In this document: positions 9,473-64,000 of the stretch, one piece after another | Position numbering within the stretch: the stretch's first letter is position 1 | Layout: the number at the start of each line of letters is the position of its first letter | Source: Amphiplicatus metriothermophilus | GTDB taxonomy: Bacteria > Pseudomonadota > Alphaproteobacteria > Caulobacterales > Parvularculaceae | Length of the DNA: 64,000 nucleotides | Direction of reading: 5' to 3' | Assembly: GCF_900199215.1 (NCBI RefSeq) | Contig: NZ_FZQA01000010.1 | Coordinates: forward strand, 1 to 64,000 | Program-made: the position numbers and the translations under genes | Notes under the pieces: model-generated | Seen by the model: the letters and a program-made list of their open reading frames with translations, nothing else | The model's database searches: none | Told to the model about the DNA's origin: nothing

Positions 9473-10852
9473 ATGCTGAGCGTCGCGGACATCTTCAAGA
9501 TCGGGCTCGGGCCGTCGAGTTCGCATACGGTCGGGCCGATGCGCATTGCGGCGCGGTTTCTGGCCGAGGCTGAAGAGGCGGGCGTTCTCGACAGGGCCGC
9601 GCGGGTCCGGGTCGACCTGCATGGTTCGTTGGCTCTCACCGGGGCCGGGCACGGCACCGACAAAGCGGCGATCCTCGGGCTTTTGGGCTACGCGCCGGAC
9701 GCGGTCGCGCCGGACGAAGCCGAAGACGCGCTGGCGCGCGTGCGCCACGCGAAGCTGCTCGCGCTCGCCGAAGGGCCCGAGATCGGCTTCGATCCGGCGC
9801 GCGACATCGCGTTCCGCGGCGAGATCATCCCCGAACTTCATCCCAATGAGATGCGGCTCGTCCTGTTCGATTCGGCCGGCGAGACGCTGTTCGACCAGAC
9901 CTATTACTCCGTAGGCGGCGGGTTCATCGCAAGCGCGAAGCAGCTGACCGCGCCGGCGAAGGACGACATGATCGCGACCGCGCGCAAAGGCCGGCATGTT
10001 TTCGGCTCCGCGAAGGAGCTGCTCGCCATTTGCCGCGACAAGGGCCTCGCGATCCACGAGGTCATCCTCGAAAACGAGGACGATCTGCGCCCGCGCGCGG
10101 AAACCCTCGCCGCGCTCGACCGCATCTGGGCGGCGATGCGCGACTGCATCGAGCGGGGGCTGAAAACCGAAGGCGAATTGCCAGGCGGGCTCAAGGTCAG
10201 GCGCCGCGCGCCGGCGCTTTACAAGAAGCTTCTCGAAGCCCCGCTCGCCAATGAGCGCGAGCAGCTTTTCGACTGGCTCAACGTCTACGCCATGGCGGTG
10301 AATGAGGAGAACGCCGCCGGCGGGCGGGTTGTCACGGCGCCGACCAACGGCGCGGCGGGCATCATCCCGGCGGTGCTCATGCACTATTGCACCGAGGACG
10401 GGAAGGAGAACATCGCGCAGATCCGCGTCTTTCTTCTCACCGCCGCCGGGATCGGGATGCTCTACAAGCAGCGCGCCTCGATTTCTGGGGCGGAGATGGG
10501 CTGCCAGGGCGAGGTGGGGGTAGCCTGCTCGATGGCGGCGGGCGGGCTCGCCGCGATCTGGGGCGGAACGCCGGCGCAGGTCGAGCACGCGGCCGAGATC
10601 GGCATGGAGCACAATCTCGGGCTCACCTGCGATCCCGTCGGCGGGCTCGTGCAGATCCCCTGCATCGAGCGCAACGCGATCGGCGCGGTGAAGGCGGTCA
10701 ACGCGGCGCGTCTCGCGCTGCGCGCGGCGGAGGAATACAAGGTCTCCCTCGATCAGGTGATCGAGACCATGCGCCAGACCGGCCTCGACATGTCGCGCAA
10801 GTACAAGGAAACGAGCCAGGGCGGTCTCGCCGTGAACGTGGTGGAGTGCTGA
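9473..10852 (+). CDS. sdaA: L-serine ammonia-lyase (iron-sulfur, single chain)
   Basis: Deaminates L-serine to pyruvate and ammonia using a 4Fe-4S cluster. The 459-residue length fits the single-chain SdaA type. The N-terminal beta domain begins [21 protein letters not shown], the family hallmark. The alpha domain contains [34 protein letters not shown] and [18 protein letters not shown], which provide the cysteines for the cluster. The start ATG is at 9473, downstream of GACGGTCCC without a strong ribosome-binding site. It is separated by 65 bases from the cytochrome gene and is probably its own unit. Confidence 0.95.
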
Positions 10853-45735: not shown

Positions 45736-46301
45736 GTCCGCTTCTCCGCCGGTCCCGAAGCGGTTTTCCGCTTTCCCGCAGACGGTTGCAAGCTCGCCGG
45801 TCGATTTTCTGGAGAACGCGCGTCGCCTCCGCCTGCGACGGCCCATGCGGGGCGGTCGATGCGGCGCGCGGCCCATATTCTGTGTGCACACTATATCGGA
45901 CGGATCAGGCGCGACATCGCCGGCGCCGGCCGGCGCGAGGAAACGCCGTCGGCGGCCCCAAGGGCGCCGCCGGCTTCGGCGTCAGGCCGCGCGACCGGCT
46001 CGCGTGCGACGCAGCCGGACAAGGCGGCCGCAAGCCTGCCGGCCGGAGCGACGGGCGCGTGGCGCGTGGGCCGCCGGGCGGTGTGTCCTGTCTGCGTCGG
46101 TCTATTGAAAACTGCAGCTAAGTCCTTGAATCCGTGTTGTCCGCCTCCCGGCGTATGATAATTTCCCCGCAGGCGGGCGAACGCGACTGTTGCGTCATAT
46201 TCCGCCGCCTCCTTAGCGGACGGTCTTCGCGTTTGCTCGTGACGTTCGAATGAACAAACGAAAGCGCGGGCCAACCTGCGCCGTCATCGAGGGAGGAAAA
46301 A
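45736..46301. other. 566-base non-coding region upstream of the TonB-dependent receptor
   Basis: Neither strand shows a protein I can support. The right part (46090-46300) is less GC-rich and should contain the receptor promoter and leader, with GAGGGAGGAAAAA as a strong ribosome-binding site at 46289-46301. A GTGTGCACAC palindrome-like spot lies near 45882-45891. No riboswitch consensus could be recognised. Confidence 0.5.
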
Positions 46302-48842
46302 ATGCAGACCAGAACGAAAGCCCGCCTGCTGGCGGGCGCGGCCGTCGTCGGCCTGTCGGCGCTCGCCGCGCCGGCGGGCGCGCAAACCGGAAGCGACGAC
46401 ATCATCGTCGTGACCGGCACCCGGGTCGAAGGAAAGTCGCCGACCGAAACGCTTTCGCCCATCGACGTGCTGCCGGGCGATTCGCTCGCCGATCAGGGCT
46501 CGTTCGATCTCACCGACACGCTCACCAACATCGCGCCTTCCATCAACACCCAACGTTTCCCGATCGCGGACGGGACCTCGTTCATCCGGCCCGTGAACTT
46601 GCGCAATCTTGCGCCGGACCAGACTCTCGTGCTTGTGAACGGCGCGCGCCGCCACCGCTCGGCGCTCGTGAACCTTCAGGTCGAGCCGTTCGGCACGGTC
46701 AATCAGGGCGCGCAGGCGGTCGATTTCGGGCTTATTCCCTCGATTGCGATCAAGCGTCTTGAAGTGCTGCGCGACGGCGCCTCGGCGCAATACGGCTCGG
46801 ACGCCATCGCCGGCGTCATCAACATCATCCTGCGCGACAACGCCGAAGGGCTCGATCTTACTGCGCAGTACGGACAGTACTATGAAGGCGACGGCGAGAG
46901 GTTCCGTCTGGCCGGCAATCTCGGCCTGCCCCTGGGCGAGAACGGCTTTTTCAACTTCTCCGCGGAATATGTCAGCTCCGACATCACCTCGCGGGGCAGC
47001 GCGCGCCCTGACGCGGCCGCGGTCGCGGCCGTGGTCGGCGCCGAGAACGTGCCTTTCGACGGGCTCGGCCAGCGCTGGGGCGATCCGGACATCGAAGGCT
47101 TTCGGCTGTTCTTCAATTCCGGCATCGATCTCGGGGACAACAAGGAAATCTACGCCCACGGCAGCTACGCCGATCAGGAAACCGTATCGGGCTTCTTCTA
47201 TCGCGCGCCTTTCGGGATTCCCGGCGTGGCGCCGCGCGCCACATTGTGCGTGTGCGACGCTTCGGGGAATCCGCTGCCGACGCCGCAGTCCATCGTCGAC
47301 GACATTATCGCGCAGGGACTCGATCCCAACGACTTCCTGACCGCGGATGCGGGAAGCCCCAGCGGGTTCGTGTCGCTCAACCCGATCCACACGCTGTTCC
47401 CGGGCGGCTACAACCCGACTTTCGGCGCCGACATCCAGGACTACGCCGGCGTGTTCGGCGTGCGCGGGGAGAAGGACTGGGGCCTGCAATGGGACATCAG
47501 CGGGCGCTTCGCCGAGAACCAGATCCAGTACGTCCTCATCAACTCGATCAACCCCGGCCTCGGAATCAACTCCCCGCTCGAATTCCGGCCCGGCGATCTC
47601 GCCCAGCGCGAGCTCGGCGTGAACGCGGACTTCGTCTATCCGTGGGTCGTTGACGGGCTCGCTTCGCCGGTGAACATCGCCTTCGGCGCGGAGTATCGGC
47701 GCGAAGTCTATGAGATCAAGCCGGGCGATCCCGATTCCTTCGCCTTCGGACCGACGGGCATTCTCTTCGGCGTCGGCTCCGACGGCTTCCAGGGCGACTC
47801 GCCGGACGCGGCCGGAATCTTCCGCCGGCCGAGCTACGCCGGCTATGTGGACGTCGAGACCGACCTGACCGAATGGCTGACCTTCGGCGCGGCCGGCCGC
47901 ATCGAGAACTTCCCCGACTTCGACGAGACCACCTTCGACTGGAAAGTCTCGGCGCGGGTGCAGCCCATGCCGTGGTTCGCGCTGCGCGGCACGGTCAACA
48001 CCGGCTTCCGCGCGCCGACGCCGGGCCAGATCAACACGCTCGACGTGACCACGACGTCCGACGCGATGGGCAATCTCGTCCCGCTCGGCACTTTCCCGGT
48101 GAACAGCGTCGTCGCGCAGGTGCTCGGCGCGCAACCGCTGACGCCTGAGGAGTCGTTCAACATCACCGCCGGCGTCGTCTTTACGCTGACGGACAATATC
48201 AGCGTGACGGTCGATTACTACAATATCGACGTGGACGACCGCATCGCGCTCGTCACGCAGACGATCACGCCCGGCTCGCCGGAGGACATGGCGCTGATCG
48301 CGGCGGGCTTCCCCGGCCTCGGCCAGGCGTCGTTCTTCCAGAACGGCTTCGACACCACCGTCGAAGGCGTCGACGTGACGGCCGTGGCGACCTTCGACGT
48401 CGGCGTCGGGACGGTCACGTTCGACGCGCGCCACAGCTACAACGAGCAGACCGTCGATCGCGTGCTCGCCGGCTCGATCGACGCCGAGCGCGTCTTCGAC
48501 CTCGAAAATCAGCTTCCGAACCATCGTTCGGTGCTGACCCTGTCCTATGACTCCGGCGACCGCCTGAGCGGCTTCGTACGCGCCAACCGATACGGCGAGT
48601 GGCAGGACTTCACCTTCGGCGAGATCGGCGAGTTCGGTTCCGAATGGCTCATCGACCTCGAGGTCAAGTTCCGCCTGACGGAGCAGTTCGCCTTCGCCGC
48701 AGGGGCGGAGAACGTGTTCGACAACTTCCCGGACGACGAGACGAACAGCGTGCTCACCTTCCTCGGCGCGACGCGCCCCGTCTCCTCGCCCTTCGGCTTC
48801 AACGGCGGCTTCTGGTACGTTCGCGCCGAGGCGAGCTTCTAG
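46302..48842 (+). CDS. TonB-dependent outer-membrane receptor
   Basis: An 846-residue outer-membrane barrel for energy-dependent uptake. It has a signal peptide (about 1-28, ending APAGAQ), a TonB-box-like DDIIVVTGTR, the plug domain (about 45-165: LTDTLTNIAPSINTQRF, LRNLAPDQTLVLVNGARRHRSALVN, IKRLEVLRDGASAQYGSDAIAGVINIIL) and the barrel, ending with an aromatic residue (VRAEASF). The plug motif is of the common proteobacterial oligosaccharide/siderophore-neutral kind, so the ligand is not predictable. It is followed by a textbook terminator. Confidence 0.95.
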   Translation: MQTRTKARLLAGAAVVGLSALAAPAGAQTGSDDIIVVTGTRVEGKSPTETLSPIDVLPGDSLADQGSFDLTDTLTNIAPSINTQRFPIADGTSFIRPVNLRNLAPDQTLVLVNGARRHRSALVNLQVEPFGTVNQGAQAVDFGLIPSIAIKRLEVLRDGASAQYGSDAIAGVINIILRDNAEGLDLTAQYGQYYEGDGERFRLAGNLGLPLGENGFFNFSAEYVSSDITSRGSARPDAAAVAAVVGAENVPFDGLGQRWGDPDIEGFRLFFNSGIDLGDNKEIYAHGSYADQETVSGFFYRAPFGIPGVAPRATLCVCDASGNPLPTPQSIVDDIIAQGLDPNDFLTADAGSPSGFVSLNPIHTLFPGGYNPTFGADIQDYAGVFGVRGEKDWGLQWDISGRFAENQIQYVLINSINPGLGINSPLEFRPGDLAQRELGVNADFVYPWVVDGLASPVNIAFGAEYRREVYEIKPGDPDSFAFGPTGILFGVGSDGFQGDSPDAAGIFRRPSYAGYVDVETDLTEWLTFGAAGRIENFPDFDETTFDWKVSARVQPMPWFALRGTVNTGFRAPTPGQINTLDVTTTSDAMGNLVPLGTFPVNSVVAQVLGAQPLTPEESFNITAGVVFTLTDNISVTVDYYNIDVDDRIALVTQTITPGSPEDMALIAAGFPGLGQASFFQNGFDTTVEGVDVTAVATFDVGVGTVTFDARHSYNEQTVDRVLAGSIDAERVFDLENQLPNHRSVLTLSYDSGDRLSGFVRANRYGEWQDFTFGEIGEFGSEWLIDLEVKFRLTEQFAFAAGAENVFDNFPDDETNSVLTFLGATRPVSSPFGFNGGFWYVRAEASF

Positions 48843-49654: not shown

Positions 49655-51148
49655 ATGGAATTCTCCCCCAACCTGTCTCTTTCCTATCTTCAGGCTGCGC
49701 AGGCGCAGAAGCATGTGACGGTGAACGAGACGTTCCGCCGGCTGGACGCGCTGGTGCAGCTGACGGTCGAGTCGCGCACGACCGCCGCCCAGCCCGCAAG
49801 CCCCGCCGACGGCGACGCCTGGATCCTGCCGGCGAACCCCAGCGGCGCCGACTGGGCCGCCATGAGCGAGGGCCATATCGCCGCCTGGCAGGACGGCGCC
49901 TGGGTCGAGATCGCCCCGCCGGTCGGCTGGCGCGCCTGGGTCAAGGACGACGAAGCCCTCGTCGTCAAAACCGCTGCGGGCTGGAAGACCGTCGCCAGCG
50001 ACGATCCCGCCTTCGACACGCTCGGCGTCAACACCACCGCCGACGCGACCAACCGCCTCGCCGTCAAGGCCGACGCCGCGCTGTTCTCCCACGACGACGT
50101 GACGCCCGGAACCGGCGACATGCAGGTGAAGCTCAACAAGGCGGCTGCGGGCGGCACGGCCTCCTTCCTGTTCCAGACCGGCTTTTCCGGCCGGGCCGAG
50201 TTCGGCCTCGTCGGCGACGACGCCTTCCGCCTCAAGGTCAGCCCCGACGGCTCAAGCTGGACCGACGCGCTCGTCGTGGACAAGGATGACGGCTTCGTCG
50301 GGATCGCGCTGGGGAGCATCGGAACGCCCGAGAACGCCTTCCACGTCGCCGGCGACGCGAACAGCCCCGGCGGCGAGCTGCGCCTTCTGTTCGACACCTA
50401 CAACGCGGGCAATTCGCAGGCCGGCCGGGCGGACTTCCGCAAAGCGGGCTCCAGCACGAAGGGCGGGCACGGCGCGACGGCGAACGGGGAGAACCTCGGC
50501 AACTTCACCTTCCTCGGCGACGACGGGACCGGCTTCACCAACGGCGCCTTCTTCGGCGCCATTCAGGAAGGAGCGGCCGGAACCTACACGCCCGCCGCCA
50601 TCCGCTTCGCCACGTCGGACGGGACGAACAACTGGACCGAGCGGCTGCGCCTGCAGGCCGACGGCGCGCTGCGCCCGACCCCGGACAATACGCATACGCT
50701 GGGCACGGCCTCGTTCCGCTGGAGCGAGGTGTTCGCCGCGACCGGGACGATCAACACCTCCGACGCGCGCGAGAAAGACGTGATCGGCCCGCCGAGCGCG
50801 GCCGAGAAGCGGGCGGCCCGGCGCGTGCTGGGCGCAATTGTCAAATATCGCTGGCTGGACGCGCTGGCGGCCAAGGGCGAGACGGCGCGCATTCATTTCG
50901 GCGTGACGGCGCAGGCGGTGCAGGCGGCCTTCGCCGCCGAAGGGCTCGATGCGGGGCGCTACGGCCTGTTCTGCGAGGACCCGGTCATGGAGGCGGTCGA
51001 GGAGCCGGCCGGGACGCCGGACGGCATTCCCTGCGCGACGACGCGCCCGAGCGGGCGGTCGCGGCTCGGCGTGCGCTACGAGGAGCTGTTCGCCTTCGTG
51101 CTGGCGGCGCTGGCGGACCCCGATGCGGGAGCAGGGGGCCTGTCATGA
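49655..51148 (+). CDS. DUF2793 tail-spike-like protein with S74 chaperone domain
   Basis: A 497-residue phage-type protein. The N-terminal DUF2793 region (about 1-115) has SLSYLQAAQAQKHVTVNETFRRLDALVQL and the tryptophan-rich DGDAWILPANPSGADWAAM. A repetitive beta-rich middle follows. The C-terminal part (about 360-490) is an S74 intramolecular chaperone, with the self-cleavage dyad Ser369-Asp370 in TSDAREKDVI and YRWLDALAAKGETARIHFGVTAQAV. DUF2793 proteins occur in alphaproteobacterial prophages and gene-transfer agents (from memory). It overlaps the endolysin gene by ATGA. No capsid, tail or terminase genes are nearby. Confidence 0.85.
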   Translation: MEFSPNLSLSYLQAAQAQKHVTVNETFRRLDALVQLTVESRTTAAQPASPADGDAWILPANPSGADWAAMSEGHIAAWQDGAWVEIAPPVGWRAWVKDDEALVVKTAAGWKTVASDDPAFDTLGVNTTADATNRLAVKADAALFSHDDVTPGTGDMQVKLNKAAAGGTASFLFQTGFSGRAEFGLVGDDAFRLKVSPDGSSWTDALVVDKDDGFVGIALGSIGTPENAFHVAGDANSPGGELRLLFDTYNAGNSQAGRADFRKAGSSTKGGHGATANGENLGNFTFLGDDGTGFTNGAFFGAIQEGAAGTYTPAAIRFATSDGTNNWTERLRLQADGALRPTPDNTHTLGTASFRWSEVFAATGTINTSDAREKDVIGPPSAAEKRAARRVLGAIVKYRWLDALAAKGETARIHFGVTAQAVQAAFAAEGLDAGRYGLFCEDPVMEAVEEPAGTPDGIPCATTRPSGRSRLGVRYEELFAFVLAALADPDAGAGGLS

Positions 51149-51684
51149 GCGGGACGGAGACGCTGAGGCTATCGCCGGCGGGGCTGGCGCTGATCAAGCG
51201 GTTCGAAGGCCTGCGGCTGGAGGCCTACAGGGACGCGGCCGGCGTGTGGACCATCGGCTACGGGCACACGTCGAAGGCGCTCGACGCGGCGGCGGAGGCC
51301 GCAACCGGCGAACAGCGCCCTCGCTTCTCCATCGAAAAGGGGCGCGTCGTCATCGACGAGGCTGACGCCGAGGCGCTTCTGCGCGCGGACGCAGGCCGGT
51401 TCGAGCAGGCGGTGCGCGCGGCGGTCGCGGTTCCGCTTGAACAGCACGAGTTCGACGCGCTGGTCTCGCTGGCGTTCAACATCGGGGCGGCGGCGTTTGC
51501 GGGCTCGACGGTGGTCAAGCGGCTGAACCGGGGCGACCGGGCCGGGGCGGCCGAGGCGATCCTGTGGTGGGACAAGGCGCGTATTAACGGCAAGTACCGG
51601 CGCGTGGAGGGTCTGGCGCGCCGTCGGGCGGCGGAAAGGGCGTTGTTCCTCGGCGCGAACCCGGTAAGCAATGAGCCATGCTGA
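51145..51684 (+). CDS. GH24 endolysin (phage lysozyme)
   Basis: A 179-residue soluble lysozyme cleaving peptidoglycan. The catalytic triad is complete and has the T4 spacing: Glu21 in FEGLRLEAY, Asp30 in YRDAAGVW and Thr36 in WTIGYGHT. Later family motifs include HEFDALVSLAFNIGAAAFAGSTVVKRLNRGDRAGAAEAI. There is no signal peptide or membrane segment. It overlaps the tail-spike gene (ATGA) and forms a two-gene unit with it. No holin-like gene is certain; an ATG in another frame at 51678 opens a short hydrophobic stretch but continues into an unlikely frame. Confidence 0.93.
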   Translation: MSGTETLRLSPAGLALIKRFEGLRLEAYRDAAGVWTIGYGHTSKALDAAAEAATGEQRPRFSIEKGRVVIDEADAEALLRADAGRFEQAVRAAVAVPLEQHEFDALVSLAFNIGAAAFAGSTVVKRLNRGDRAGAAEAILWWDKARINGKYRRVEGLARRRAAERALFLGANPVSNEPC

Positions 51685-53643: not shown

Positions 53644-54657
53644 ATGCGGATCTTTATCACCGGAACGGCGGGCTTCATCGGGTTTCATCTGGCGCGTCGG
53701 CTGATCGCCGACGGCCACGAGGTGTTCGGCTATGACGGCCTGACGCCTTATTACGATCCCGAGCTGAAAAAAGACCGGCTCGCGCTCCTCGAAGCGACGG
53801 GACGCTATCGCGGCCGCATCGCCATGCTGGAGGACAAGGCCGCGCTCGCCGACGCGATCGGCGAATGCCGGCCTGAGATCGTCGTTCATCTGGCCGCGCA
53901 GGCCGGCGTGCGGTACAGCCTCGACAACCCGCAAGCCTATATCGATTCCAACATCGTCGGGACGTTCAATCTTCTGGAGATCGTCCGCGCCGCCCCGCCG
54001 AGGCACCTGCTCATCGCCTCGACAAGCTCGGTCTACGGCGATGCGGAACGCACGCCCTTCGCCGAAACGGATCGCTGCGATTTTCCCATCTCGATCTATG
54101 CGGCGACGAAAAAGTCCTGCGAGGCGATCAGCCATAGCTACGCGCATCTGTTCGATGTTCCGACGACCTGCTTCCGCTTTTTCACCGTCTACGGACCGTG
54201 GGGAAGGCCGGACATGGCGCTGTTCAAATTCGTTCGCGCGATCCGAAAGGGCGAGCCCATCGACGTTTACGGCGAAGGAAAAATGCGGCGCGACTTCACC
54301 TATATCGACGATCTTGTCGAAGGGCTTGCGCGGCTGCTTGCGGTTCCGCCGGAGAAAGGAAAGCCGCTCGAAGCGCCGGGCGTCGAGGACAGCCTGTCGC
54401 CGGTCGCGCCCTGGCGCGTGGTGAATATCGGCGGCGGCAATCCGGCTGGCCTGATGGATTTCATCGCCGCCGTGGAGCAGGCGCTCGGCAGGAAAGCCGA
54501 GAAGAATATGCTGCCCCGACAGATGGGCGACGTCGTCGAAACCTTCGCGTCGCCTGCGCTGCTGCGCGCCCTCACCGGCTTTGCGCCGTCTACCGACCTG
54601 GCGGTCGGGGTCAAGGCCTTCGTCGACTGGTACACGGAGCGGTACGCCGATGGCTGA
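53644..54657 (+). CDS. NAD-dependent epimerase, probable UDP-glucuronate 4-epimerase
   Basis: Short-chain dehydrogenase-type sugar epimerase, probably making UDP-galacturonate from UDP-glucuronate for the polymer. The Rossmann motif [14 protein letters not shown] starts at residue 6. The catalytic region [14 protein letters not shown]...[11 protein letters not shown] gives Ser and the YxxxK pair, with YAATK being characteristic of UDP-glucuronate epimerases. [16 protein letters not shown] and [14 protein letters not shown] are further landmarks. I chose ATG 53644 with GGGAAGGGCG upstream. It overlaps the next gene by 8 bases. Confidence 0.85.
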
Positions 54658-55756
54658 GCGGGCCTGCATGGGGAGGGCGCGCGCGGGCGACCGACTGTCC
54701 TTCAGCATCGCAGTGCCGGTCGGCGGTTATCATCCTTTCCTGCCGCGCAATCTCGCCAGTCTGTCCGCGCAGCATGCGGCGCTGCAGGTCAGCCTGTTGG
54801 ACGCATCCGGCGATCCGCGCGTCAGGGATGTCGCTGATCGTTACGGCGCGCTGCTCGCCTATCGACGGCATGGTCCGGATGCCGGACAGTCGGCCGCCAT
54901 TATAGAGGGGTGGGCCAATACGCCCGGCGAGATACTCGGCTGGCTCAACGCTGACGACATTCTCATGCCGGGCGCGCTTGCACGCGCCGAGGCGGCCTTC
55001 CGGCGCGATCCTTCGCTCGACATGGTCTACGGGCACAGCGTGATCCTCGACGATGCGGGCCGCATGATCGGGTACCACTGGGCGGTGGAGCCGCAGGAAG
55101 AGCGTATTCTCGAGACTAACGTAATCTCCCAACCATCCTGCTTTTTCCGGCGAGAAGCTTACGAGAGAGCGGGAGGGCTCGATCGGGACCTTCATTATAC
55201 GATGGATTGGGATTTATGGGTCCGGCTCTTCAAATCAGGCGCCAAAATCGGCTTCATCAATGCGCCTCTATCGATGGTGTTGTGGGGGCGGGAAACCAAG
55301 ACAGCTTCCTTCAATACACGACGTCGGGCGGAACTCGCCCGCCTCATCGACGCGCATGCCTCGGGCGGCCGGCGCAGGCGGACCTTTCGGGGATTCGCTG
55401 TACAGGCGTTTCTGGATCGACTGAATCCAGGCTTTCCAAAAGATTCCCTTCTGCATTTCCTGCATCGCAGAAGCCCTTCGATCTACGGCGTGCGCGCCGA
55501 TGGATGGATAGAATCGAAGGCGAGGTTATATCTCGCTCATTACGACGACACGCCGAAGCGCGGAGTCGAAATCGTTTTTGCGCGCGCGGCGCGCGGCGCG
55601 CGCCTTGAATGCGATAAGATCGTGGCGCGCGTCGATGCGGATGGGCGCGCTCTCAAGGCGATCTTTGAACAGCCGATCGAGGCTGGACAGACGGTGGTCC
55701 TCGATATCGCCCTGCCGCAGGGCGGAGCACGGTTACGCGCTTGCGCGTGGATTTAG
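54650..55756 (+). CDS. Glycosyltransferase family 2
   Basis: A 368-residue GT-A fold sugar transferase. The N-terminal domain (about 15-235) has [21 protein letters not shown], a DxD-like [16 protein letters not shown] near 105 and [22 protein letters not shown] further C-terminal region of about 120 residues is of unknown role. ATG 54650 lies inside the epimerase stop region (GATGGCTGA), so the genes are translated together. The second half is clearly less GC-rich than genes upstream, suggesting transfer. Donor sugar unknown. Confidence 0.85.
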
Positions 55757-55813: not shown

Positions 55814-56755
55814 TCATTCTGTATGCAGAAAATCAGCGATCTTTTCAATCGCGAGCAGGCTCACGCGACGCACGGCGTCCACAGTGTTGGAGCCGTTATG
55901 AGAGCCGAAAATGCATTTGTCGAAAGCGCGTAGCGGCGAATCGGCCGGGAGCGGCTCGATTTCGAACACGTCGAGCGCGGCGGAATGAATGATGCCGCTC
56001 TCGAGTCCTTTTACAAGCGCGGATTCTACAATCACGGGCCCGCGAGAGACGTTGACGACGCGCACCCCGGGCTTGAGCTTTTCCAGCAACGCTTCGTCGA
56101 ACATGCCGCGGGTGGCGTCATTCAGCGGGCAGGCGAAGATGAGAAAATCGGCTTCGCCGACTCGCTCCGGCCAAGGCGCGCATTCCACGTCGAGTCCTTT
56201 GATCGGCGCATACATCGGATCGTAGGCGATGACCCTGGAGCCGCAGGCGAGGATTCGCCGCGCGATTTGCCGACCGATATCTCCGAATCCGATGACGGCG
56301 ACCGTCTTGCAGGTCATGCTGATGCCGGCGGGCTTCGGCCAGGTTTTGTTTTCGCGAATCTGACGATCTATCCAGTACGTTTGCCTGGCCAGACCGAGCG
56401 CATATGTCAGAGCGACGTCGGCAACCTCGGACCCGAATACGCCTGGGGTGTTCGCCACCGGCACGCCAAAATCCTTGAAGGCGGCGAAATCGACATTATC
56501 GACGCCGACGCCCCATTTGATCGCCGCCTTGAAGCGGCCTTTCACGCCCGCCTCGACCACGGCGCGGGTTGCCGGGTCGTCTCCCATGATCCAGCCGTCA
56601 TATTGAGGCAGGCTTGCGATAAGCTCCGCCTCGCTCTTGACCTGGCGCACTTCGGCGGGAACGCATTCAAGATCGCGCGCGGCGAACGCGTCCTGAAATT
56701 CATCGATCAGCCCAAGCATAGGCGGGCATGTCACCAGCACTTTATATTTGGCCAT
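55814..56755 (-). CDS. 2-hydroxyacid dehydrogenase (phosphoglycerate dehydrogenase-like)
   Basis: A 313-residue NAD-dependent D-hydroxyacid dehydrogenase of the SerA/PGDH kind. Domains: catalytic half (1-100 and the C-terminal strand), NAD-binding half (about 100-285) with VIGFGDIGRQIARRI as the GxGxxG motif. The active-site Arg is in VVNVSRGPVIVE, Glu in ALDVFEIEPL and His in FGSHNGSNTVDA. It lies last in a four-gene reverse operon with a cytidylyltransferase, glycosyltransferase and DUF115-like protein, so its substrate is probably a precursor of an acidic sugar or linker rather than free phosphoglycerate. ATG is preceded by CAGGGAAA. Confidence 0.88.
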   Translation of the reverse strand: MAKYKVLVTCPPMLGLIDEFQDAFAARDLECVPAEVRQVKSEAELIASLPQYDGWIMGDDPATRAVVEAGVKGRFKAAIKWGVGVDNVDFAAFKDFGVPVANTPGVFGSEVADVALTYALGLARQTYWIDRQIRENKTWPKPAGISMTCKTVAVIGFGDIGRQIARRILACGSRVIAYDPMYAPIKGLDVECAPWPERVGEADFLIFACPLNDATRGMFDEALLEKLKPGVRVVNVSRGPVIVESALVKGLESGIIHSAALDVFEIEPLPADSPLRAFDKCIFGSHNGSNTVDAVRRVSLLAIEKIADFLHTE

Positions 56756-56784
56756 ACGATTTCCCTGCGATGAAATAGCGCCTG

Positions 56785-57504
56785 TTATGATTCGGGCAGC
56801 GCTTCGCCACTCGCGATTCTCCTTAGGATCGATTCGGCGATGAACCAGTCGAACGGCTCGTCGATGTCGATTGATTCGAGCGCAGGCGTTTCAAACAGCA
56901 AGGGCTTTTCGCCGATGCGCGCGCCGGTTTTTGCAAAGCTCGCAGGCGTAAACACATAGCCTACGGAATTCTCCTCGAGATAAGGCGGCAGGTCCTGCGT
57001 GCGCACCAGGTTCTTCGGGTCATGATTGATCGCTTCGCCTTCCGGCGTGTAGAAGCGCGTTCTATGCGCCGTGACGGTGAACAGCGAATCCGCCGCGCCG
57101 CGCCGCTCGGCATCGTAGAAAACCGCGAGCATCCGCGAAATTGTTTTGGCGCTTAAAAGCGGGTTCGTCGTGTGGGTCATCAGAAAATAATCGGATTCCA
57201 CATTTGCGACGTCGTCTGCGAGAACGAGATTCATGGAGACGAAATCGCCGCAGATTTCCGGTTTGCGGTCCCGGATCAGAACCTTGCCGCCGCAGTCGCC
57301 GTCCTTGAGTCCTTTTTCCGCCAGAATACCGCGCGCGTCGGTGTTGATGACGATCTGATCGACCTCAGGCGTTGCTGCGAGCGTATCGAGAACCCAGCGG
57401 AACAGCGGCTTGCCGGCGATGGCGCGAAAGTTTTTCGATGTCACGCGTGCGCTGTGCGCCTTCATCGGCAAAAGAGCGGTAAGGCGCTTCGAGCCTTCGA
57501 GCAT
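56785..57504 (-). CDS. Cytidylyltransferase of the acylneuraminate (NeuA/KdsB) superfamily
   Basis: A 239-residue nucleotidyltransferase that should activate a sugar acid as its CMP derivative. Its start LLPMKAHSARVTSKNFRAIAGKPLFRWVLDTL matches the CTP-binding motif of the family (loop plus KN and GKPL). INTDARGILAEKG, RDRKPEICGD and THTTNPLLSAKTISRM are further NeuA-like features. The substrate is unknown: no NeuB-type synthase occurs in the window. It is preceded by AAGGGG and forms part of a reverse operon with the DUF115-like and GT2 genes upstream and a PGDH-like gene downstream. Confidence 0.85.
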   Translation of the reverse strand: MLEGSKRLTALLPMKAHSARVTSKNFRAIAGKPLFRWVLDTLAATPEVDQIVINTDARGILAEKGLKDGDCGGKVLIRDRKPEICGDFVSMNLVLADDVANVESDYFLMTHTTNPLLSAKTISRMLAVFYDAERRGAADSLFTVTAHRTRFYTPEGEAINHDPKNLVRTQDLPPYLEENSVGYVFTPASFAKTGARIGEKPLLFETPALESIDIDEPFDWFIAESILRRIASGEALPES

Positions 57505-57534
57505 ACGGACCCCTTATGAGAATTGACGGCGCGT

Positions 57535-58512
57535 CTATTGAGCCTTGTCGCGCCCGTTGGCGAGAGCCAGCGTTCGCGTTTCCGTGGTCGACCGCTTATG
57601 GTCGACATGGCGTTTCGGCCGTGGGTAATAGTAGCGCTCTTTCTGCGCGCGCGAGAGCGTGCGATGCTCGTTGTGACCGCGATAAGTTCCCCAATACTGC
57701 ATGATGCGAAATCCCAGAATGCCCGCCGCCTCTTTGAAAAAGACCTTGCGGCTCAGCGCTTCAGAGAAATCGTGCATGATCGCGGCGCTTAGGTAACGCA
57801 TGAAATCACCGAAGTTAAAATGCACTTCCGGCATGATCTCCCGCAGTGTGAGCGCTTCGCGATAGTAGCGTCGTTTGACCTGTTCGAGCGTTTCTTCATG
57901 GATGTGGATCACGGGTGCGTCGGCGACGTAACCGATCTTGCCGCCCTCCCTGACGATAGACTTGGCGAGCACCATGTCTTCAAGGCCAGTGACGGCTTCG
58001 TCGAAACGGTGTTTCGCCCACAGCTCCTTGCGGATCGCGGCGTTGGCGTTGTTGCAGAAAAAGTCTCCCTGCGGGATCTTGTCAAAGTCGGAAAAATATT
58101 TAGCGAACACTTGATGTTCGGAGAACCGGGTGAGCTCGTGTCCGATCTGCTTTCCATAGACGTAGTCGGCCGCGCCTTGCCGAATCGGGCTGATGAGATT
58201 CGCCAGCCAGCGCTCATGCGCGGGAATGCAGTGGGCGGAGATGAATGTCAGAATATCGCCGGCGGCTGCATCGCAGCCGTAGTTGAGCGAACGGCCGAAT
58301 GTGAATTCCGATCTCTTGATGTGAATCACCCGGCAGCCGTGGCGCTCAGCGATCTCGAGCGTGCGGTCCGTCGAGCCTGAGTCCACCAGGATGATTTCTA
58401 TGCCCGCGTCTTCGATTTTTTGGGCTTTACACGCGTCCAGCGCGGCCTCAAACCACTTTTCTTCGTTGAGCGCGCGAAAGATGATGCTGACAAAGGTTTT
58501 CGGGCGGTTCAC
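57535..58512 (-). CDS. Glycosyltransferase family 2 with probable GTG start
   Basis: A GT-A transferase of 325 residues from GTG 58512. KTFVSIIFRALNEEKWFEAALDAC and VDSGSTDRTLEIAERHG (nucleotide-binding DSGSTD) mark the N-terminus, followed by FGRSLNYGCDAAAGDILTFISAHCIP and NANAAIRKELWAKHRFDE. I chose GTG because GAGGA lies eight bases upstream, while longer frames to 58644 overlap the end of the preceding gene by 68 bases. It is the second gene of the reverse operon and probably transfers the sugar activated by its neighbour. Confidence 0.82.
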   Translation of the reverse strand: MNRPKTFVSIIFRALNEEKWFEAALDACKAQKIEDAGIEIILVDSGSTDRTLEIAERHGCRVIHIKRSEFTFGRSLNYGCDAAAGDILTFISAHCIPAHERWLANLISPIRQGAADYVYGKQIGHELTRFSEHQVFAKYFSDFDKIPQGDFFCNNANAAIRKELWAKHRFDEAVTGLEDMVLAKSIVREGGKIGYVADAPVIHIHEETLEQVKRRYYREALTLREIMPEVHFNFGDFMRYLSAAIMHDFSEALSRKVFFKEAAGILGFRIMQYWGTYRGHNEHRTLSRAQKERYYYPRPKRHVDHKRSTTETRTLALANGRDKAQ

Positions 58513-58576
58513 CGGTGCCGTCCTCAAGCTGGCGCCGTCAAAGGGCGCGGAGGGATTATAGTCAAGCCGGCGGAAT

Positions 58577-59755
58577 TTAGACGCGTCGCGACGAGTTTTC
58601 CACCCCGTCTGCTTGGATGGGCCCCGCCGCGAGCGCTCCTTCATCGGCGGCGATGCGCGTCATATCGTCGGCGGCCGCCTTTAGCGCCTCGATCTCATGG
58701 CGCATAAGGTTGAGCTGGGCGATCGTCGCCCGTCGAGTGTAAAGTAACAGAATGAACAAGCTCCAGATCAGGCCGCTGAGAAGGACATAGGCTGCTGCGA
58801 AACCGCGTGAAAAAGCGCCTGGTTCGGCCAGTAACGCGACGAGCCCGATGGCGAGAATTGCTCCTGGGGTCAGGCAGGCGAAGAGGTTCGTCCGTAGAAA
58901 TCCAAGCAGTTTGCGCGCCGCGTTCATGGGCGAGGGCGGGGTGACGGCTTCGCTCTGAGCAGGGACGGGCGCACGGGCCGCAGGCAGCGGCTCGTCTGCT
59001 GGCGAGGGAGTCGCGCCCGGACCGAGCAGGCTCTGAAGATCGACAAAGGGAAAGCATCTTACGGCCGAATCAGCATTGGCGTTATAAGCCTCGACCCCGG
59101 CTTTCCTGAGCAGAAGGGCGGCCGCGCGCCACGCGCCGACATGCAAGCCTGGACGCGGATTGGGAATGTTGTAGCGGTCTCCCGGCTGCTGATAACCGTC
59201 AAAGAAGTAGTTGGGATTTTCTCCTGCGCGCACGACTTCGAGCTCTATCCCGTTCCGGCGCTCGGCCCCGTCGACGACCTCCTTGTAACGGCCATCGACG
59301 CCGAGCAGTACGATCTTTTTGAAACCGAGCGTCGCGATCCATAGCGCTGCGTGGCTACCGGTGGTGATCGCCGGCTCTTGGAGCAGTTCGAGGCGCGCAC
59401 GCAACGCGTCGAAATTCACCACGCGCCGGGTGTGGGCCGCATCGCCCAACGCCTCTATAAGATTTTGACGCAAAAGAAACTTTTCGATTCGGCCTTCCTC
59501 AATGAGCGCGGCGATTTCGGCCTTGTGAGACAGGCCGACCGTGAGGTCGAGGCAGGCGTAGTATGTCGGTCGCCAGCCGATCCGCCGCCAGTAACGATAA
59601 GCGGCGTTCAGTCCGATCGTCGCATAATCTGAAAGCGCGGCCAGATCGACGCCCCGCAAGGACGGACCGTTGCCGAGAACGAATGCGGTATGCGCGTCAG
59701 CGCGCACAATCGGAGCATGCAGGCCGGTGGTGCTCATGGATGCGAGGTATGTCAT
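58577..59755 (-). CDS. DUF115 (MptE-like) protein with C-terminal membrane anchor
   Basis: A 392-residue protein from ATG 59755 (Met at 59737 also possible). Residues about 25-250 follow the DUF115/MptE-like fold: FVLGNGPSLRGVDLAALSDYATIGLNAAYRYW, ITTGSHAALWIATLGFKKIVLLGVDGRYK. In other bacteria DUF115 proteins transfer nonulosonate sugars to flagellin (Maf) or act on pterins. A Pro/Ala-rich linker and two hydrophobic helices follow (about 302-322 and 328-347), so the domain is membrane-anchored, which is unusual. The gene heads the reverse four-gene operon and is divergent from a GT4-like gene. It is AT-richer than neighbouring genes. Confidence 0.78.
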   Translation of the reverse strand: MTYLASMSTTGLHAPIVRADAHTAFVLGNGPSLRGVDLAALSDYATIGLNAAYRYWRRIGWRPTYYACLDLTVGLSHKAEIAALIEEGRIEKFLLRQNLIEALGDAAHTRRVVNFDALRARLELLQEPAITTGSHAALWIATLGFKKIVLLGVDGRYKEVVDGAERRNGIELEVVRAGENPNYFFDGYQQPGDRYNIPNPRPGLHVGAWRAAALLLRKAGVEAYNANADSAVRCFPFVDLQSLLGPGATPSPADEPLPAARAPVPAQSEAVTPPSPMNAARKLLGFLRTNLFACLTPGAILAIGLVALLAEPGAFSRGFAAAYVLLSGLIWSLFILLLYTRRATIAQLNLMRHEIEALKAAADDMTRIAADEGALAAGPIQADGVENSSRRV

Positions 59756-63359: not shown

Positions 63360-64000
63360 ATGAAACGCAAGATTCTAATCTACACTGACAGCCGTGGACA
63401 ACACATACCGCGCGCTGCCGAGCCATTTGAAATCTTCACGATGCGGTTGGCGAACCACCCTAGAGTCGAGGCGACAGTTCTCCTGTGCCCAATGAAGTGG
63501 ACGACAACGATCGATTTTTTAGATTTCCTGGAAGAACATCGTCCCGAAAACTTCGACCATGTAGTTTTGCAAACCGGCATTGTCGAATGGTCGCCGCGTC
63601 CGCAACCAAGTGCGATCAACGACCTTTACAACAATAAAAACCCAGTCAATCAGGGAAACCAAATGCTCAATACGCGCGAATACGCGCGCAAAGTCGTCAA
63701 CAACAAAAAACTGAGCTTTGATAAAATCTTTACTGAAGAGGCGATGCTCGCGCACTTGCATTCGAATTTTGATGTCGAGTATGAAGGGCACCCGACTATC
63801 AATATGTACAGCCTTGACATGGCGGAAAAGAACCTTCTGCCGCGGCTTCTTAAAATCGAAAATCTCTTGTTCGTGAATTCAAACCGCTTCGTACCCGGCT
63901 GGGAAGGCGATTTCACGAGGGGGCGGCCTAAGAATATCGGGATGACTGCCGGTTACTCCGCGCTATTCCGGGATGTGCTCGGTCCCAACAAAACGATTGA
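63360..64000 (+). CDS. Partial protein cut by the window edge, possibly SGNH-hydrolase-like
   Basis: An open frame runs from ATG 63360 to the end of the window without a stop (about 213 residues visible). It begins MKRKILIYTDSRGQHI, where DSRG resembles the first block of SGNH hydrolases, and continues with FDHVVLQTGIVEWSPRPQPS, which could be a later block. Codon use is less GC-rich than in the gmd-fcl genes. It is divergent from gmd, at the end of the polysaccharide locus. It may be an acetyl-modifying enzyme, but I cannot name it; the end lies outside the window. Confidence 0.65.
   Translation, partial: MKRKILIYTDSRGQHIPRAAEPFEIFTMRLANHPRVEATVLLCPMKWTTTIDFLDFLEEHRPENFDHVVLQTGIVEWSPRPQPSAINDLYNNKNPVNQGNQMLNTREYARKVVNNKKLSFDKIFTEEAMLAHLHSNFDVEYEGHPTINMYSLDMAEKNLLPRLLKIENLLFVNSNRFVPGWEGDFTRGRPKNIGMTAGYSALFRDVLGPNKTI

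Follow-up and report, generated by a model that had tools for sequence, protein, structure and literature searches.

What does a NeuA-like cytidylyltransferase activate in a bacterium that has no NeuB? The question is raised by Amphiplicatus metriothermophilus, in which the first 64,000 nucleotides of contig NZ_FZQA01000010.1 (assembly GCF_900199215.1; this whole stretch is hereafter the window) carry a tightly packed, minus-strand run of four genes at 55814–59755. In gene order, these encode a DUF115/MptE-like protein, a family 2 glycosyltransferase (GT2), a NeuA-like CTP-dependent cytidylyltransferase (CMPS), and a PGDH-like D-2-hydroxyacid dehydrogenase (PGDH). The answer proposed here, with a probability of roughly 0.55, is that they belong to a cassette providing a NeuB-independent oxidative route for making a 2-keto sugar acid (ulosonic acid) in CMP-activated form and transferring it. 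The looser claim, that this is a NeuB-free system of CMP-acid glycosylation, is very probably correct. What the window carries is a shortened version of the cassette, which is widespread and has apparently gone undescribed so far.

CMPS (239 aa; 56785–57504, minus strand) matches PF02348 at 46.0 bits, above the gathering cut-off of 22.6, and thus belongs to the CTP-dependent cytidylyltransferase superfamily; its closest solved relatives in the PDB are NeuA enzymes. It falls under every NeuA, PseF, and KdsB equivalog cut-off, reaching 47.6 bits where PseF requires 205.7, and 15.8–27.7 bits against KdsB models with cut-offs of 155–281. The superfamily core is retained, alongside a signature of its own (LLPMKAxSxRV, MTHTTNPL, [IV]NHDP, TQDL, and EENS), and on sequence grounds CMPS is best regarded as a divergent, separate subfamily of the NeuA/PseF/KdsB superfamily. 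What enzymes of the NeuA, PseF, and KdsB types activate is the anomeric hydroxyl group of a 2-keto acid.

A search for NeuB (PF03102) gave no match in the entire genome to which the window belongs (98.4% complete), with 9 of 14 control genomes positive. The sequence-only reading had remarked that a NeuB-type synthase was missing from the window, and this holds for the whole genome; a neuB just outside the window, named beforehand as grounds for abandoning the proposal, was covered by the same search and none was found. NeuB is likewise missing from 13 of the 16 CMPS carriers tested. The remaining three (G021, G283, and G756) possess it, unlinked to CMPS in every case, and in G021 it adjoins a second, distant NeuA-like gene ~860 kb away. 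The earlier suggestion of a CMP-acid pathway lacking a NeuB-type synthase is supported.

The window genome groups with metagenome-assembled genomes of the Parvularculaceae. Among 61 related genomes, in which presence was judged at set thresholds, CMPS occurs in 13 (66–100% identity). GT2 is present in the same 13 and missing from all 48 genomes without CMPS; the PGDH subtype is found in 12 of the 13 carriers (in the thirteenth, the contig ends within CMPS) and the DUF115 protein in 9, and again neither is found in the other 48. The corresponding Fisher values for GT2, PGDH, and DUF115 are 1.5e-13, 7e-12, and 4e-8, uncorrected for shared ancestry. GT2 lies on a different contig from CMPS in two genomes (G022 and G034), and the link is therefore more than adjacency. 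The DUF115 gene stands beside CMPS in these same two genomes, with GT2 carried elsewhere, and the idea that GT2 and DUF115 are interchangeable alternatives was rejected. In relatives, the order around CMPS is GT2 (or DUF115)–CMPS–PGDH, usually followed by a short-chain dehydrogenase/reductase (SDR; ~247 aa) and an SMP-30 protein (~300 aa). Pairwise identities of the cassette genes correlate moderately (Spearman 0.32–0.60), which points to some gene swapping within the cassette. An earlier expectation of a conserved four-gene set thus stands as regards co-occurrence with CMPS, but the four genes are not the conserved unit: the core is GT2–CMPS–PGDH, DUF115 is a frequent accessory, and SDR and lactonase genes are found in most relatives.

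The dehydrogenase is the constant partner that had been anticipated, and it adjoins CMPS in nearly all relatives. PGDH (313 aa; 55814–56755, minus strand) scores 156.6 bits on PF02826 and 54.9 bits on PF00389, placing it in the D-2-hydroxyacid dehydrogenase superfamily; the Rossmann GxGxxG motif is present, and the catalytic Arg/Glu/His and NAD-binding Asp are kept, these residues being conserved in 75–76 of 77 aligned sequences. Its matches include 2-ketogluconate reductase. A housekeeping SerA was ruled out by the TIGR01327 score (180 bits, cut-off 454), by length (313 aa as against 525 aa, the C-terminal part being missing), and by the confinement of this PGDH subtype to CMPS carriers.

The cassette extends well beyond these relatives. 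From a GTDB scan with additional class- and phylum-level searches, the best 80 of 556 loci were analysed (CMPS at 55–78% identity), and the 67 with full flanks were tabulated by a six-frame profile scan; these loci are not independent of one another. The 80 loci span Alpha-, Beta-, and Gammaproteobacteria, Cyanobacteria (Dolichospermum, Moorena), Verrucomicrobiota (Akkermansia), Nitrospirota, Planctomycetota, and Desulfobacterota, at least six phyla; a plasmid search returned five records, none of which gave a better-studied host. Within the 67 loci, GT2 lies upstream of CMPS in 62, PGDH downstream in 64, and an SDR downstream in 44, and NeuB is found near CMPS in none. A lactonase-type gene occurs in 36, of the metallo-β-lactamase (MBL) type in 16 and the SMP-30 type in 20, with the two never together. 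The lactonase tracks the SDR, which is present in 33 of the 36 lactonase loci compared with 11 of the 31 without (Fisher 1.4e-6); both are found in 33 of the 67.

The MBL protein is UlaG-like (PF12706) and lies directly upstream of GT2 in many loci, being fused to it in L057, L109, and L143; its nearest named relative in both NCBIfam and the PDB is L-ascorbate-6-phosphate lactonase (UlaG). Elsewhere, SMP-30 replaces it, lying downstream in some loci and, in a divergent form, upstream in L058, L130, L142, and L147. The closest solved relatives of the main SDR are glucose 1-dehydrogenases; those of SMP-30 are regucalcin and the bacterial SMP-30 protein 7plb, which we take to be the Caulobacter xylonolactonase. 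In L121, L081, and L076, a XylB-like SDR (237–275 bits to D-xylose 1-dehydrogenase) and a different SMP-30 stand beside the core, and L144 has the same layout for this second SDR and SMP-30 pair. What appears to be the repeated, independent recruitment of an aldose-dehydrogenase-like SDR together with a lactonase provides the strongest hint to the chemistry.

Computation gives the gene content, co-occurrence, conserved catalytic residues, folds, and NeuB absence; every reaction and its direction, the sugar's identity, and the choice of transferase for the CMP donor are inferences. In the full cassette, the aldose-1-dehydrogenase-like SDR would convert an aldose to an aldonolactone, which the lactonase (SMP-30 or UlaG-like MBL) would open to the aldonate. 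PGDH would then oxidise the aldonate at C2 to a 2-keto-aldonate (ulosonate), and CMPS would couple this with CTP to give a CMP-ulosonate. Finally, the DUF115 protein and/or GT2 would move the ulosonate from CMP onto surface polysaccharide. The chain leads to a 2-keto acid, and it is on acids of this class that NeuA, PseF, and KdsB enzymes act. In the window genome, which lacks SDR and lactonase orthologues, the lactone or aldonate steps would have to fall to other enzymes, or the aldonate would have to be taken up. The sequence-only reading had envisaged an acid made by oxidation or reduction of a hydroxyacid; the involvement of PGDH is retained, and the SDR and lactonase narrow the route to aldose, lactone, aldonate, and 2-keto acid.

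Two proteins are candidates for the transfer step. GT2 (325 aa; 57535–58512, minus strand) scores 89.2 bits on PF00535, and a structure model has the GT-A fold, matching TarP, GpgS, and other GT2 enzymes. The DXD motif, which binds metal for NDP-sugar donors, is lost: S-[AG]-H stands at that position in all 77 readable copies and S-A-H-C in the window protein, where chondroitin synthase has D-C-D, and a neighbouring GT2 at 54650–55756 retains N-A-D-D. Loss of the metal-binding residues fits a CMP donor, but GT2 could act on another sugar instead.

The DUF115 protein (392 aa; 58577–59755, minus strand) reaches 19.1 bits on PF01973, below the gathering cut-off of 34.6; the family call is held nevertheless because relatives in L105 and L147 score 44–46 bits and the structure model supports the family and fold. 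The AlphaFold model (mean pLDDT 74.5, with the better part at residues ~20–240) has a GT42/Maf-like fold in the N-terminal ~250 aa, followed by C-terminal hydrophobic helices. The best structural matches of residues ~10–247 are Cst-I (Z 13.6), Maf (13.5), and Cst-II (13.4); the ten top matches are all Cst-I, Cst-II, or Maf (Z 11.8–13.6), and the next match outside these transferases is HPPK (Z 10.4). The DUF115 protein is a probable CMP-ulosonate transferase, a fold in common with Cst and Maf being no proof of function. Taken as a whole, the most specific version of the proposal, namely, an undescribed, multi-phylum oxidative CMP-ulosonate route in which a DXD-less GT2 has switched from NDP to CMP donors and the DUF115/GT42-like protein is an alternative or second transferase, is put forward only tentatively.

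Several points weigh against the oxidative route. In the window genome, the best match to the SDR reaches 33% and that to SMP-30 reaches 36%, neither of them close, and the SMP-30 match sits in an apparent sugar-degradation locus; with neither SDR nor lactonase beside the core, the window holds a reduced version of the cassette. The core without SDR or lactonase is also seen in 17 of the 67 loci. Both the MBL and SMP-30 families include proteins that are not lactonases, reduction is the direction usually preferred in vitro by D-2-hydroxyacid dehydrogenases, and kinship of the genomes inflates the co-occurrence statistics. Moreover, the open-access literature gave no link between a 2-keto-aldonic acid in a glycan and this gene set; a description in a subscription journal is possible.

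A different association of CMPS is seen in two verrucomicrobial loci, in which a CMPS at 64–68% identity to the reference is accompanied by an HpcH/HpaI aldolase (L101, with CMPS at 10001–10660 and HpaI downstream; L126, 9179–10702). GT2, PGDH, and SDR were undetected near CMPS in either, L126 offering only ~2 kb of downstream sequence. HpcH/HpaI aldolases are another known source of 2-keto acids. In a sister layout, a CMPS of greater divergence stands with an epimerase and an HpcH/HpaI aldolase in L059 (7991–10168), L060 (465–2883), and L061 (1818–3304 and 9451–13532). The distant CMPS is at 43–46% identity in L059 and L060, L059 and L061 add a phosphatase of the HAD type and a distant PGDH, and L061 additionally has NeuB and NeuA-like genes. 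Such loci may make a further keto-deoxy acid for CMP activation, by way of an aldolase.

Of the competing explanations, the one that survives best, although it is judged unlikely, is that the acid activated by CMPS is supplied from elsewhere, be it Kdo, the product of an aldolase, or a scavenged compound, with PGDH and SDR tailoring that sugar or making some other glycan component; the cassette would in that case be an operon for tailoring and not an oxidative route to an ulosonate. Such a division of labour would suit the loci that, like the window, have the core alone, as well as the ability of an HpaI aldolase to accompany CMPS instead and the grouping of CMPS with an aldolase, an epimerase, a phosphatase, and a PGDH in L059–L061. 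However, PGDH follows CMPS in 64 of the 67 loci and is missing just where the aldolase is present (L101 and L126), and the recurrence alongside PGDH of lactonases of two unrelated types and of two SDRs that are likewise unrelated would be left unexplained by tailoring alone. Less probable still is that PGDH works as a reductase, yielding a D-2-hydroxy acid (for example, of the glycerate or lactate type) that CMPS then activates. Many members of the dehydrogenase superfamily do reduce in vivo, and glyoxylate and hydroxypyruvate reductases are among the PDB matches of PGDH; reduction would, however, remove the very anomeric hydroxyl that NeuA/PseF/KdsB-type enzymes activate, and the lactonase and aldose-dehydrogenase-like SDR alongside fit oxidation. 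Ordinary biosynthesis of a nonulosonate (sialic, legionaminic, or pseudaminic acid) with NeuB encoded elsewhere is highly improbable: the nearest solved proteins are NeuA enzymes and three carriers do possess NeuB, but there it is unlinked (in G021, beside another NeuA-like gene), most carriers and all 67 loci lack it, CMPS scores far under the PseF and KdsB cut-offs, and for the window genome this explanation is all but refuted, the one escape being a NeuB within the missing ~2%.

The close spacing and minus-strand arrangement first noted for the four genes were confirmed, with gaps of 64, 30, and 29 nt in gene order, as were good ribosome-binding sites: purine-rich, minus-strand sequences precede GT2 (GAGGA, 58521–58525), CMPS (AAGGGG, 57510–57515), and PGDH (AGGGAA, 56761–56766). 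GT2 is assigned a GTG start; the alternative ATG at 58644 would give a longer frame that runs into the DUF115 gene, and alignment with homologues starts only at ~58500. By Pfam and NCBIfam, Gmd and Fcl lie immediately upstream of the four genes, and a sugar-nucleotide epimerase and glycosyltransferase genes occupy the other flank, where ABC-exporter permease and ATPase genes are also read from sequence alone. Judged by these contents, the neighbourhood is taken to be a surface-polysaccharide cluster, and the loci being of this kind, attachment to protein, an ability of DUF115 proteins mentioned in the sequence-only reading, is not indicated. Fucose was considered as the oxidised sugar, given Gmd and Fcl next door; as a rule this is not supported, with Gmd or Fcl in only 22 of the 67 loci.

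Further genes were observed around the cluster. Adjoining it at 49655–51684 are a gene for a 497-aa phage tail/S74-type-like protein and, directly after, a lysozyme-like gene; the pair may be left over from a phage or gene-transfer agent. A predicted protein of ~1959 aa occupies 63492–64000 and continues past the window end to contig position 69371 (L021); it groups with genes for multi-domain glycosyltransferases from related clusters. At 46284–48524, a 746-aa open frame lies antisense to a TonB-receptor-like gene (46302–48842) and is probably a consequence of codon bias at high G+C.

To our knowledge, every CMP-sugar acid whose synthesis has been described (Kdo, sialic, legionaminic, and pseudaminic acids) begins with an aldol-type condensation with phosphoenolpyruvate. 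If correct, a NeuB-free oxidative route would thus provide a new class of activated sugar and surface-glycan component, would account for many 'acylneuraminate cytidylyltransferase' annotations in bacteria without sialic acid synthesis, and would give GT2 a new type of donor. Glycosylation from a CMP-ulosonate is of a known kind; the supply route would be new.

The nonulosonate pathways (NeuB–NeuA, LegI–LegF, and PseI–PseF, with Maf/GT42 transferases) share with the cassette the joining of a 2-keto acid to CTP (here inferred), an enzyme of the NeuA superfamily, and a Cst/Maf-like fold. The cassette differs in having PGDH, SDR, and lactonase in place of the NeuB condensation, a separate CMPS subfamily, and a DXD-less GT2 as the constant glycosyltransferase. 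Maf enzymes transfer nonulosonates, and CbMaf, according to PMC11339370, also accepts Neu5Ac and Kdo. In the CMP-Kdo pathway (KdsA/KdsB/WaaA), a 2-ulosonic acid is likewise activated in CMP form by a related fold; CMPS, however, is only weakly similar to KdsB (at most 28 bits), and the cassette showed no gene for a KdsA-type aldol condensation. As regards products, PMC10433991, citing Dengler 1988, gives 4-deoxy-2-hexulosonic acid as a component of the E. coli K3 capsule, a six-carbon ulosonic acid in a glycan and hence of the class predicted here; the K3 sugar is 4-deoxy, and the likeness is at the level of product class. Oxidative sugar catabolism (Caulobacter XylB–XylC; Gno/GhrB) employs the same families, namely, an SDR aldose dehydrogenase, an SMP-30 lactonase, and a D-2-hydroxyacid dehydrogenase. 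The cassette enzymes, in contrast, sit with a cytidylyltransferase and a glycosyltransferase within polysaccharide clusters, and their product therefore seems to be built into a glycan and not degraded.

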